Origin: Owenia fusiformis
Lineage: Eukaryota; Annelida; Polychaeta; Sabellida; Oweniidae
Reading direction: 5' to 3'
Length of the DNA stretch: 64,000 nt
Assembly (NCBI GenBank): GCA_903813345.2
Contig: CAIIXF020000010.1
Span: 23,293,740-23,357,739, forward strand
Made by a program: the position numbers and the translations under genes. The notes beneath the pieces are model-generated. The model was not told where the DNA came from and made no database searches. It saw only the letters and a list, made by a program, of their open reading frames with translations. Positions 14,284-62,200 of the stretch are shown one piece after another (the first letter of the stretch is position 1; the number at the start of each line of letters is the position of its first letter).

Positions 14284-17200
14284 GGTGCGACAGGATCTAC
14301 TGGAGCAACAGGCTCTACAGGATCCACAGGTGCAACTGGTGCCACAGGATCTACTGGAGCAACGGGATCAACAGGCGCAACTGGTGCAACAGGCCCTACA
14401 GGAGCGACTGGTGCAACAGGGTCTACAGGAGCAACAGGTGCCACAGGATCTACAGGGGCAACTGGTTCAACAGGATCTACAGGAGCGACTGGTGCAACAG
14501 GCTCCACGGGAGCAACTGGTGCAACAGGATCAACGGGTGCAACTGGAGCAACAGGATCTACAGGGGCAACTGGTTCAACAGGACCTACAGGAGCGACTGG
14601 TGCAACAGGCTCCACGGGAGCAACTGGTGCAACAGGATCAACGGGTGCAACTGGAGCAACAGGATCTACAGGTGCAACTGGTGCCACAGGATCTACAGGG
14701 GCAACTGGTGCAACAGGGTCTACAGGAGCCACTGGTGCAACAGGCTCTACTGGTGCCACAGGATCTACAGGGGCAACAGGGTCTACAGGAGCAACTGGTG
14801 CAACGGGCTCGACGGGCGCGATAGGTGCCACGGGATCAACTGGTGCAACGGGATCCACAGGTGCAACTGGAGCCACAGGATCTACTGGAGCTACTGGGGC
14901 GACAGGCTCTACAGGGGCAACTGGTGCAACAGGCTCCACGGGAGCAACTGGTGCCACAGGATCTACTGGGGCGACAGGCTATACTGGTGCAACTGGTGCA
15001 ACAGGCTCCACGGGAGCAACTGGTGCAACAGGATCAACTGGCGCAAAAGGATCTACAGGTGCAACTGGTGCCACAGGATCCTCAGGGGCAACTGGAGCAA
15101 CAGGGTCCACAGGAGCGACTGGTGCCACAGGCTCTACAGGAGCGACTGGTGCAACAGGTTCTACTGGTGCCACAGGATCGACAGGGGCAACTGGTGCAAC
15201 AGGGTCTACGGGTGCAACTGGAGCAACAGGATCTATAGGTGCAACTGGTGCCACAGGATCTACAGGGGCAACTGGTGCAACAGGGTCCACAGGAGCGACT
15301 GGTGCAACAGGCTCTACTGGTGCCACAGGAGCAACTGGTTCAACAGGATCTACAGGAGCGACTGGTGCAACGGGCTCGACGGGCGCGTCAGGTGCCACGG
15401 GATCTTCTGGTGCAACAGGCTCTACTGGTGCCACAGGATCTACAGGGGCAACAGGAGCGACTGGTGCAACGGGCTCGACGGGCGCAACAGGTGCCACAGG
15501 ATCTACTGGTGCAACAGGATCCACAGGTGCAACTGGTGCCACAGGATCTACTGGAGCTACTGGGGCGACGGGCTCTACAGGGGCAACTGGTGCAACAGGA
15601 TCCACGGGAGCAACTGGTGCCACAGGATCAACGGGCGCAACTGGAGCAACAGGATCTACAGGTGCAACTGGTGCCACAGGATCTACTGGGGCGACAGGCT
15701 CTACTGGTGCAACTGGTACCACAGGATCTACAGGGGCAACTGGTTCCACAGGATCTACAGGAGCGACTGGTGCAACAGGCTCTACTGGTGCCATAGGATC
15801 TACAGGGGCAACTGGTGCCACAGGAGCTACTGGGGCGACAGGTTCTACAGGGGCAACAGGTGCAACAGGCTCCACGGGAGCAACTGGTGCCACCGGATCA
15901 ACAGGCGCAACTGGATCGACAGGATCTATAGGTGCAACAGGCTCCACGGGGGCAACTGGTGCAACAGGATCAACGGGTGCAACTGGTGCCACCGGATCTA
16001 CTGGAGCTACTGGGGCGACAGGCTCTACAGGGGCAACAGGTGCAACAGGCTCCACGGGAGCAACTGGTGCCACAGGGGCAACAGGCGCCACTGGATCGAC
16101 AGGTGCAACTGGTGCAACAGGCTCCACGGGAGCAACTGGTGCCACAGGATCTACAGGGGCAACTGGTGCCACCGGATCTACTGGAGCTACTGGGACGACA
16201 GGCTCTACAGGTGCAACAGGCTCCACGGGAGCAACTGGTGCCACAGGATCAACAGGCGCAACTGGATCGACAGGCTCAACAGGTGCAACTGGTGCAACAG
16301 GCTCAACGGGAGCAACTGGTGCAACAGGATCAACGGGTGCTACTGGAGCAACAGGATCTACAGGTGCAACTGGTGCCACGGGATCTACAGGGGCAACTGG
16401 TGCAACAGGGTCTACAGGAGCGACTGGTGCCCCAGGATCAACGGGCGCAACAGGATCTACAGGTGCAACTGGTGCCACAGGATCTACTGGGGCGACGGGC
16501 TCTACTGGTGCAACTGGTGCCACAGGATCTACAGGGGCAACTGGTTCAACAGGATCTACAGGAGCGACTGGTGCAACAGGCTCTACTGGTGCCACAGGAT
16601 CTACAGGGGCAACTGGTGCCACGGGATCTACTGGAGCTATTGGGGCGACAGGCTCTACAGGGGCAACAGGTGCAACAGGCTCCACGGGAGCAACTGGTGC
16701 CACAGGATCAACAGGCGCAACTGGATCGACAGGATCTACAGGTGCAACAGGCTCCACGGGAGCAACTGGTGCAACAGGATCAACGGGTGCAACTGGAGCA
16801 ACAGGATCTACAGGGGCAACTGGTGCGACAGGGTCAACAGGGGCGACTGGTGCAACAGGCTCTACTGGTGCCACAGGATCTACAGGGGCAACAGGATCTA
16901 CAGGAGCGACTGGTGCAACGGGCTCGACGGGCGCGACAGGTGCCACGGGATCTACTGGTGCAACAGGCTCTACTGGTGCCACAGGATCTACAGGGGCAAC
17001 AGGAGCGACTGGTGCAACGGGCTCGACGGGCGCTACAGGTGCCACAGGATCTACTGGTGCAACAGGATCTACAGGTGCAACTGGTGCCACAGGATCTACT
17101 GGAGCTACTGGGGCGACAGGCTCTACAGGGGAAAATGGTGCAACAGGATCCACGGGAGCAACTGGTGCAACAGGATCTACGGGCGCAACTGGAGCAACAG

Positions 17201-59200: not shown

Positions 59201-62200
59201 CAGGTGCCACAGGATCTACTGGTGCAACAGGCTCTACGGGTGCAACTGGTGCCACAGGATCTACAGGGGCAACTGGCTCTACAGGAGCGACAGGTGCCAC
59301 AGGATCAACTGGAGCTACCGGTGCAACGGGCTCCACGGGCGCAACTGGTGCTACCGGATCTACTGGATCCACTGGTGCAACTGGCTCTACGGGAGCTACT
59401 GGTGCAACAGGCTCTACGGGTGCAACTGGTTCTACAGGATCTACTGGAGCCACTGGCTCTACAGGAGCGACAGGTGCCACTGGATCTACTGGAGCTACTG
59501 GTGCAACAGGCTCTACGGGTGCAACTGGTGCCACAGGATCTACAGGGGCAACTGGTGCAACTGGCTCTACAGGAGCGACAGGTGCCACAGGATCTACTGG
59601 AGCTACTGGTGCAACAGGCTCTACGGGTGCAACTGGTGCCACAGGATCTACAGGGGCAACTGGTGCAACTGGCTCTACAGGAGCGACAGGTGCCACTGGA
59701 TCTACTGGAGCAACAGGGGCCACGGGATCTACGGGTGCAACTGGTGCCACAGGATCTACAGGGGCAACTGGTGCAACTGGGTCTACGGGTGCAACTGGTG
59801 CCACAGGATCTACAGGGGCAACTGGTGCGACTGGCTCTACAGGAGCGACAGGTGCCACAGGATCTACTGGAGCTACCGGTGCAACAGGCTCTACGGGCGC
59901 AACTGGTGCTACCGGATCTACTGGAGCCACTGGTGCAACTGGCTCTACTGGAGCAACTGGTGACACAGGATCTACTGGAGCGACAGGGGCCACGGGCTCT
60001 ACGGGTGCAACTGGTGCCACAGGATCTACAGGGGCAACTGGTGCAACTGGCTCTATAGGAGCGACAGGTGCAACTGGATCTACTGGAGCTACTGGTGCAA
60101 CAGGCTCTACGGGTGCAACTGGTGCCACAGGATCTACAGGGGCAACTGGTGCAACTGGCTCTACAGGAGCGACAGGTGCCACAGGATCTACTGGAGCTAC
60201 CGGTGCAACAGGCTCTACGGGCGCAACTGGTGCTACCGGATCTACTGGAGCCACTGGTGCAACTGGCTCTACGGGAGCAACTGGTGACACAGGATCTACT
60301 GGAGCGACAGGGGCCACGGGCTCTACGGGTGCAACTGGTGCCACAGGATCTACAGGGGCAACTGGCTCTACAGGAGCGACAGGTGCAACTGGATCTACTG
60401 GAGCTACTGGTGCAACAGGCTCTACGGGTGCAACTGGAGCCACAGGATCTACGGGGGCAACTGGTGCTACTGGGTCTACAGGAGCGACAGGTGCCACAGG
60501 ATCTACTGGTGCAACAGGCTCTACGGGCGCAACTGGTTCTACAGGATCTACTGGAGCCACTGGCTCTACAGGAGCGACAGGTGCCACTGGATCTACTGGA
60601 GCAACAGGGGCCACGGGATCTACGGGTGCAACTGGTGCCACAGGATCTACAGGGGCAACTGGTGCAACTGGGTCTACGGGCGCAACTGGTGCTACAGGAT
60701 CTACTGGAGCCACTGGTGCAACTGGCTCTACAGGAGCGACAGGTGCAACAGGATCAACTGGTGCAACTGGCTCTACAGGAGCGACAGGTGCCACAGGATC
60801 TACTGGTGCAACAGGCTCTACGGGTGCAACTGGTGCCACAGGATCTACAGGGGCAACTGGTGCAACTGGTTCTACAGGAGCGACTGGATCTACTGGAGCT
60901 ACCGGTGCAACAGGCTCTACGGGTGCAACTGGTGCCACAGGATCTACAGGGGCAACTGGTGCAACTGGGTCTACGGGCGCAACTGGTGCTACAGGATCTA
61001 CTGGAGCCACTGGTGCAACTGGCTCTACAGGAGCGACAGGTGCAACAGGATCAACTGGCTCTACAGGAGCGACAGGTGCAACAGGATCTACTGGAGCTAC
61101 TGGTGCAACAGGCTCTACGGGTGCAACTGGTGCCACAGGATCTACGGGGGCAACTGGTGCAACTGGCTCTACAGGAGCGACAGGTGCAACTGGCTCTACG
61201 GGAGCTACTGGTGCAACAGGCTCTACGGGTGCAACTGGAGCCACAGGATCTACGGGGGCAACTGGTGCAACAGGCTCTACGGGTGCAACTGGAGCCACAG
61301 GATCTACGGGGGCAACTGGTGCTACTGGGTCTACAGGAGCGACAGGTGCCACAGGATCTACTGGTGCAACAGGCTCTACGGGCGCAACTGGTTCTACAGG
61401 ATCTACTGGAGCCACTGGCTCTACAGGAGCGACAGGTGCCACTGGATCTACTGGAGCAACAGGGGCCACGGGATCTATGGGTGCAACTGGTGCCACAGGA
61501 TCTACAGGGGCAACTGGTGCAACTGGGTCTACAGGTGCAACTGGTGCTACAGGATCTACTGGTGCAACAGGACCAAGTGGGGCAACAGGACCAAGTGGTG
61601 CACAAGGCCCAACTGGAAGTACTGGACAAACTGGTTCCACAGGGCCATCTGGAGCAGAAGGTCCAACCGGAGCAACAGGACCAACAGGTTCAGTTGGCTC
61701 AACAGGGCAAACTGGAGCTACTGGTCCAACTGGAGCAACAGGAGTTACAGGGGCTACAGGAGCATTTGGGGCAACTGGAATAACTGGGTTGACAGGACCA
61801 ACTGGTGCAACAGGACCAACAGGTGAAACTGGACCAACAGGTGCAACTGGTCAAATTGGACCAACAGGACCACCAGGGTCTACTGGAGCAACTGGTGTCA
61901 CAGGGTCTACAGGGGCCACTGGTGCAACAGGTTCTACAGGGGCCACAGGTTCTACAGGGGCCACTGGTGCAACAGGGTCTACAGGGGCCACTGGTGCCAT
62001 GGGGTCTACAGGGTCCACTGGTGCCACAGGTTCTACAGGGGCCTCTGGTGCCACAGGGTCTACAGGGGCCACTGGTGCCACTGGTGCAACAGGGTCTACA
62101 GGGGCCATAGGGTCTACAGGGTCCACTGGTGCCACAGGTTCTTCAGGGGCCTCTGGAGCCACAGGGTCTACAGGAGCCACTGGTGCAACAGGGTCTACAG

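Follow-up and report, generated by a model that had tools for sequence, protein, structure and literature searches.

A 49-kb exon of Owenia fusiformis encodes a collagen-type repeat almost devoid of proline

We analysed a 64,000-nucleotide stretch of the genome of the annelid Owenia fusiformis (contig CAIIXF020000010.1, positions 23,293,740 to 23,357,739; hereinafter the window), which contains a giant exon at 13790–62884. The giant exon is a collagen-type coding sequence, namely an uninterrupted series of Gly-X-Y (GXY) triplets, with Thr in almost every Y position and almost no Pro. On balance, we slightly favour the view that it specifies a giant secreted collagen-like protein, uncharged and nearly free of imino acids, plausibly stabilised by O-glycans on the Thr residues in Y (Y-Thr). 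Unless stated otherwise, all features lie on the plus strand.

The giant exon and its coding constraint

The plus-strand reading frame is open from 13744 to 62937, and runs without a stop across 16,364 codons. Splice sites set the giant exon at 49,095 bp, which is divisible by three; it is in phase 1 at entry and exit, and a Gly codon is split at both borders. The donor (CTACAG/GTGAGA) has a score of 6.9, which is matched by none of the 718 GTs in 101–13700 and none of the 2,030 GTs inside the exon. The initial annotation had placed the collagen at 14284–61569, which takes in the two long arrays and the spacer between them and understates the extent of the exon.

Gly occupies all 5,454 Gly-register positions, whereas X departs from Ala or Ser 200 times and Y departs from Thr 136 times. 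Specifically, X is Ala in 3,249 triplets, Ser in 2,005, and Pro in 63 (1.2%), while Y is Thr in 5,318 and Pro in 8 (0.15%), and Pro accounts for 71 of the 16,364 residues. In the two long arrays, Thr fills Y in 5,133 of 5,207 triplets (3,468/3,529 in array 1 and 1,665/1,678 in array 2), X is Ala or Ser in 5,112/5,207, and only 13 of 15,620 residues are Pro (0.08%). These counts agree with the initial annotation, which had described Thr in almost every Y, Ala or Ser in X, almost no Pro, and over 5,000 potential O-glycosylation sites, the 5,133 Y-Thr of the arrays being such potential sites.

Ser and Thr together make up 45% of the residues. The chain is almost neutral: of its 16,364 residues, only 48 carry a charge (D 26, E 12, K 8, R 2). 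Cys, His, and Trp are absent from it. Its computed mass is 1.29 MDa, and its contour length is 4.68 μm at a rise of 0.286 nm per residue. Pfam Collagen (PF01391) matches three pieces of the product with 253.6, 112.8, and 226.2 bits, and is the sole family on those pieces; tRNA and Rfam searches gave no match. The Pro- and hydroxyproline (Hyp)-rich, charged helix of fibrillar collagen is not found here (71 Pro and 48 charged residues). Because there is almost no Pro, little Hyp is possible, and the product, if folded like collagen, has to be held together otherwise than an ordinary animal collagen. To our knowledge, the giant exon is among the largest animal coding exons. The literature searched holds no report of an imino-free giant Thr collagen or of a longer animal exon, which is weak evidence of absence.

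Selective constraint was estimated from 18 non-overlapping pairs of paralogous blocks inside the giant exon (13.1 kb per copy, mean identity 94.9%), counting single-base codon differences with an assumed transition weight of 2 and an expected synonymous share of 33.7%. There are 443 synonymous and 82 non-synonymous differences, corresponding to an omega of about 0.09 (0.094). Codons with multiple differences are excluded from this value; all 71 are non-synonymous, and counting each of them once gives an omega of ~0.18. A stricter set of 9 pairs contains 150 synonymous differences, 31 non-synonymous differences, and 24 multi-base non-synonymous codons. The synonymous excess over the 18 pairs has a p value of 3e-127, which is nominal only because the repeats of a single gene are not independent observations. 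In Gly-register codons, bases 1 and 2 are invariant, and base 3 is nearly random (entropy 1.84 bits). The invariant Gly, the low omega, and the near absence of Pro bear out the proposal of a hydroxyproline-poor, collagen-type coding sequence.

A non-coding minisatellite that lacks stops in one frame by chance would accord with the tandem unit of 27 bp (GATGATGST, 9 residues; ~1,851 tandem copies) and with the fact that several frames are long-open. Such a minisatellite would leave unexplained the 443 versus 82 changes where 34% synonymous is expected, the invariant Gly, and the splice-compatible ends of the exon. This reading is extremely improbable, and is rejected on the synonymous bias together with the Gly invariance.

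The gene could instead lie on the antisense strand and encode a Val-Ala-Pro/Val-Asp-Pro repeat protein, as one antisense frame is nearly open, interrupted by just 4 stops over 47 kb (14290–61560). The omega of this frame over the 18 pairs is 0.131, which is also low because its third codon positions coincide with the sense third positions. The two strands are separated by 445 isolated differences classed by their effect in the sense and antisense frames. Changes silent in the sense frame but altering the antisense frame are not suppressed (31 observed versus 9.7 expected neutrally, ratio 3.2), and the ratio for changes silent in both frames is 2.5; none is silent in antisense and sense-altering (0 observed versus 0.7 expected). 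Since the strand-separating changes are unsuppressed when only the antisense frame is altered, the constrained strand is the sense strand. In addition, the antisense frame contains stops, and both borders of the giant exon and the upstream exon described below are sense. An antisense gene has next to no probability, and is ruled out by the change class that separates the two strands. A minus-strand open frame of 10,447 codons at 14979–46322, which reads Val-Ala-Pro/Val-Asp-Pro, has no constraint of its own that we could see.

The giant exon begins with a more varied GXY segment containing GPT, GLI, and GFL triplets (13798–14284). Array 1 (14285–46044) consists of GAT and GST triplets, mainly in 9-residue (27 bp) units; successive X-Ser residues are 9 residues apart in 784 of 1,352 intervals and 6 apart in 385. 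Spacer 1 (46045–46458; 138 residues) is rich in GPS and GPT and keeps perfect GXY. Array 2 (46459–61560) is again built of GAT and GST, with X-Ser spacings of 9 residues in 480 of 601 intervals and 6 in 88, and holds 22 of the 24 GDT triplets; its best lag is 108 bp (identity 0.792, versus 0.781 at 27 bp). Spacers 1 and 2 (the latter at 61561–61902) are clear paralogues, suggesting duplication of a block made up of an array and a spacer. A short array 3 and a GPT-rich C-terminal GXY tail (61903–62884) lead up to the splice donor. Exact internal repeats reach 1,632 bp, and 132 pairs are at least 200 bp long.

Stabilisation of the predicted triple helix

It is likely that the chains encoded by the giant exon form a triple helix, and substantial glycosylation of Thr is reasonably probable. 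Three chains would wind into a helix of up to about 4.7 μm. Side chains in Y of a triple helix face the solvent, so that Y-Thr can carry sugars, and little stability is expected of a helix that has neither imino acids nor charge pairs. With hardly any imino acids pre-ordering the chain, the stability of this helix would come from O-glycans on the outward-pointing Y-Thr, with help from its sheer length and its unbroken register. The resulting rod, hydrated, neutral, and coated with sugars, would belong to an extracellular layer; cuticle, tube, egg case, and mucus are examples. The arrays would have expanded through tandem duplications that kept the frame, both of 9-residue units and of larger blocks up to kilobases in size. 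More tentatively, and with somewhat less than an even chance, an evolved, nearly imino-free triple helix several micrometres long, with more than 16,000 residues per chain, is encoded in one exon, uses glycosylated Y-Thr in place of Pro and Hyp, and is perhaps derived from or convergent on bacterial Gly-X-Thr (GXT) collagens.

Several points weigh against a glycan-stabilised secreted collagen. The case is drawn from DNA sequence. The model peptide in which galactosylated Thr (Gal-Thr) stabilises the helix has Pro in X, and X here is Ala or Ser, so the precedent is inexact. The X and Y composition has close bacterial counterparts. A scan of 1–6230 for a signal-peptide exon (ATG, hydrophobic stretch, and phase-1 GT donor) yielded 0 candidates; such an exon possibly lies outside these filters or outside the window. 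Fibrillar collagens end in a C-terminal COLFI domain. No C-terminal trimerisation domain was found in the window, and the 3’ end of the gene probably lies beyond it.

In the cuticle collagen of the vent worm Riftia pachyptila, X holds Pro or Hyp, whereas X of the giant exon holds Ala or Ser. The presumed helix-stabilising residue is Thr in Y in both, and the Y position of the giant exon (Thr in 5,318/5,454) is dominated by Thr as in a collagen stabilised by Gal-Thr. Glycosylated or galactosylated Thr was measured in the Riftia protein (Mann 1996, cited in passages of PMC11766948 and PMC10141479; Bann 2000, cited in PMC10141479), whereas the giant exon is read from DNA; the vent-worm precedent invoked in the initial annotation, a natural collagen stabilised by glycosylated Thr, is stated in PMC11766948 and PMC10141479. 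According to excerpts of PMC12403961, the giant collagen of Alvinella pompejana has 8,859 residues, and those of three Paralvinella species have 7,719–8,689. Like them, the giant exon encodes an extremely long invertebrate GXY chain, and its 16,364 residues exceed their range of 7,719–8,859. A chain of 8,859 residues has room for no more than 2,953 triplets, so the giant exon alone (5,454) is ~1.8 times as long, and the counts in Table 1 of the same paper (5,012–5,722 pattern matches) cannot be plain triplet counts. In the alvinellid and earthworm (Eisenia andrei) giant collagens, Pro fills 33–40% of X and 22–33% of Y (PMC12403961, same excerpts); this Pro-rich X and Y of giant annelid cuticle collagen is not found in the giant exon, with its 1.2% and 0.15%. 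The analogy with a vent-worm strategy fits in part: Thr dominates Y, but a close link to worm cuticle collagen is opposed by the Pro-rich giant worm collagens described in these excerpts and by the nearest compositions found, which are those of bacterial Thr-Y collagen-like proteins.

A protein search with a 441-residue C-terminal piece as the query scored 7,995 candidates, of which 7,208 matched at E ≤0.001. Among the 120 matches listed, the named organisms are bacterial (including C. difficile and B. velezensis) but for the lichen fungus Cladonia borealis, and many entries are nameless; none of the 119 listed matches whose GXY run reaches 15 triplets or more has both Thr in >90% of Y and Pro in <5% of X. 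A search for giant relatives of 5,500–17,500 residues scored 458 candidates, none at E ≤0.001, though repeats may be masked by its composition correction. Among PDB sequence matches, a 780-residue collagen-repeat chain of solved structure, spindlefibril/axialfibril (PDB 8zxl, 9ius), ranks third.

We also surveyed 160 loci, the best 80 of 184 confirmed prokaryote and the best 80 of 338 confirmed viral loci, cut at about 13 kb; 156 of them have a run of at least 20 triplets (78 prokaryote and 78 viral). Pro is ≤2% in 3/78 prokaryote and 7/78 viral loci of these best-80 sets. The longest nearly Pro-free run surveyed, in L077 (Paenibacillus), has 382 triplets with Thr in 0.96 of Y and 0.5% Pro; L057 (219 triplets) and L046 (80 triplets) have Thr in 0.97 and 0.94 of Y. 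No surveyed run joins Thr in ≥90% of Y, Ala or Ser in ≥90% of X, and Pro ≤2%. The nearest, in L050 (Cohnella), has 39 triplets, with Thr in 97% of Y, Ala or Ser in 92% of X, and 3% Pro. Like the giant exon, bacterial GXT collagen-like proteins have a Thr-dominated Y, an Ala/Ser-rich X, and few charges, and some are nearly Pro-free; their longest run of any kind among these truncated loci is 712 triplets (L012, Bacillaceae), as against 5,454. The nearly Pro-free Thr-Y runs thus give the amino-acid strategy bacterial counterparts, whereas its length has none among the loci examined. A bacterial Thr-Y collagen-like run of 594 triplets occurs in L042, and L012, L042, and L077 are possible simple models for the stability question. 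Passages of PMC3368898 give Thr in 48% of Y and Ala and Pro in 23% and 31% of X for Gram-positive bacterial collagens, and state that prolyl hydroxylases are absent from bacteria and viruses. The earlier premise that ordinary collagens need Hyp is accordingly too strong for collagen-like helices in general. Three readings that accept the coding sequence compete with a glycan-stabilised helix.

The product may not be triple-helical, being instead a single-chain polyproline-II-like or mucin-like glycoprotein, even an analogue of fish antifreeze glycoprotein. The latter is a short Ala-Ala-Thr repeat with a disaccharide on each Thr and with cleavage spacers; it shares with the giant exon Thr at every third residue with small partners, and lacks the Gly found at every third residue here. 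The 45% Ser and Thr, the small X, the near absence of imino acids, and the lack of a trimerisation domain in the window are consistent with such a glycoprotein. However, Gly alone never changes (0/5,454, versus 200 departures in X and 136 in Y), a constancy required of a triple helix but not of a mucin or antifreeze glycoprotein. GPT-containing collagen makes up both the flanking segments and the upstream exon, and repeated basic cleavage spacers are missing (2 Arg, 8 Lys). We consider this reading unlikely. A triple helix with unglycosylated Thr is decidedly unlikely. Its cohesion would stem from its length and perfect register, from chain association, and from a low body temperature, and unmodified bacterial Thr-Y collagens might be held in the same way. 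This reading finds precedent in the imino-poor bacterial runs of L077, L057, and L046, known here as sequences, whereas animal O-glycosyltransferases act on secreted Thr-rich chains. With neither Hyp nor Thr glycans, a collagen domain encoded by a prophage has a melting temperature of 42 °C (PMC3368898), but that protein has a Pro-rich X and charge, unlike the giant exon.

Finally, the length may be partly an assembly artefact or the extreme allele of one haplotype, the real gene being shorter. Exact internal duplicates of up to 1,632 bp, among 132 pairs of at least 200 bp, make this conceivable, and the Alvinella authors voice the same worry over their own long collagens (PMC12403961, excerpts). 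Against it stand 49 kb of repeat without a frameshift, an order marked by two spacers, and the 94.9% average identity of the 18 paralogous blocks, whose differences accurate reads of 10–20 kb should resolve. We give a shorter real gene a small chance.

Upstream exon, intron and flanks

An upstream exon of 459 bp (6238–6696; phase 1 at both ends) lies between an acceptor (TTCAG, 6233–6237) and a donor (ACAG/GTAACA, 6696/6697). It encodes a non-collagen leader of 25 complete codons, followed by GXY with one 1-residue interruption, and matches Pfam Collagen, its sole Pfam family, with 68.5 bits. Splicing to 13790 maintains the Gly register. Its 3’ border is the weaker one because the donor score is modest (3.0, equalled by 14 of the 718 GTs in 101–13700).

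The inferred intron (6697–13789) contains nested inverted repeats, for example 6851–7011 with 13571–13731 (88% complementary) and 7211–7429 with 12306–12524 (90%), which could bring the two ends of the intron together by folding. It also contains a decayed paralogue (8656–8845) of the giant-exon stretch 14073–14262. Of 190 bases, 22 differ between the two, and the codon differences comprise 6 synonymous and 12 non-synonymous ones. Gly is lost in 3/21 positions of the decayed copy versus 0/5,454 in the giant exon (Fisher p 4.9e-8, slightly flattering because the copy was spotted by eye before counting). The decayed copy is an internal control for relaxed constraint. A degenerate collagen-derived array of 36-bp units adjoins it (8486–8718). 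An open frame of 207 codons (11476–12096) has a sub-threshold zf-RVT match (20.5 bits versus the Pfam cut-off of 27.5) and is probably a retrotransposon fragment; a protein search with this retroelement-like frame scored 72 candidates and gave no match.

The gene may end at the stop at 62935–62937 rather than splice at 62884, as two further GXY triplets and then a hydrophobic tail lie in frame between 62884 and this stop. However, none of the 2,748 other GTs scored matches the donor, and the window has neither AATAAA nor ATTAAA beyond it. Further downstream, 63308–63975 contains three direct-repeat families, with copies 280–292 bp apart and one 150 bp apart. Within the window, the flanks of the giant exon are AT-rich and hold no other long gene. 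With these flanks, the splice borders, and the retroelement-like fragment, the locus does not resemble an intronless gene in a bacterial context. The AT-rich flanks without long genes and the retrotransposon-like fragment point to a eukaryote, and we infer an invertebrate animal.

Meaning for collagen stability

Collagen stability is taught as resting on Pro and Hyp. If the favoured reading of a glycan-stabilised collagen is true, this natural helix, whose arrays contain 0.08% Pro, would cleanly test whether Thr sugars that face outward can do this job alone. It would also raise the practical questions of how a cell transcribes, splices, and translates a 49-kb exon and secretes a chain of ~1.3 MDa.

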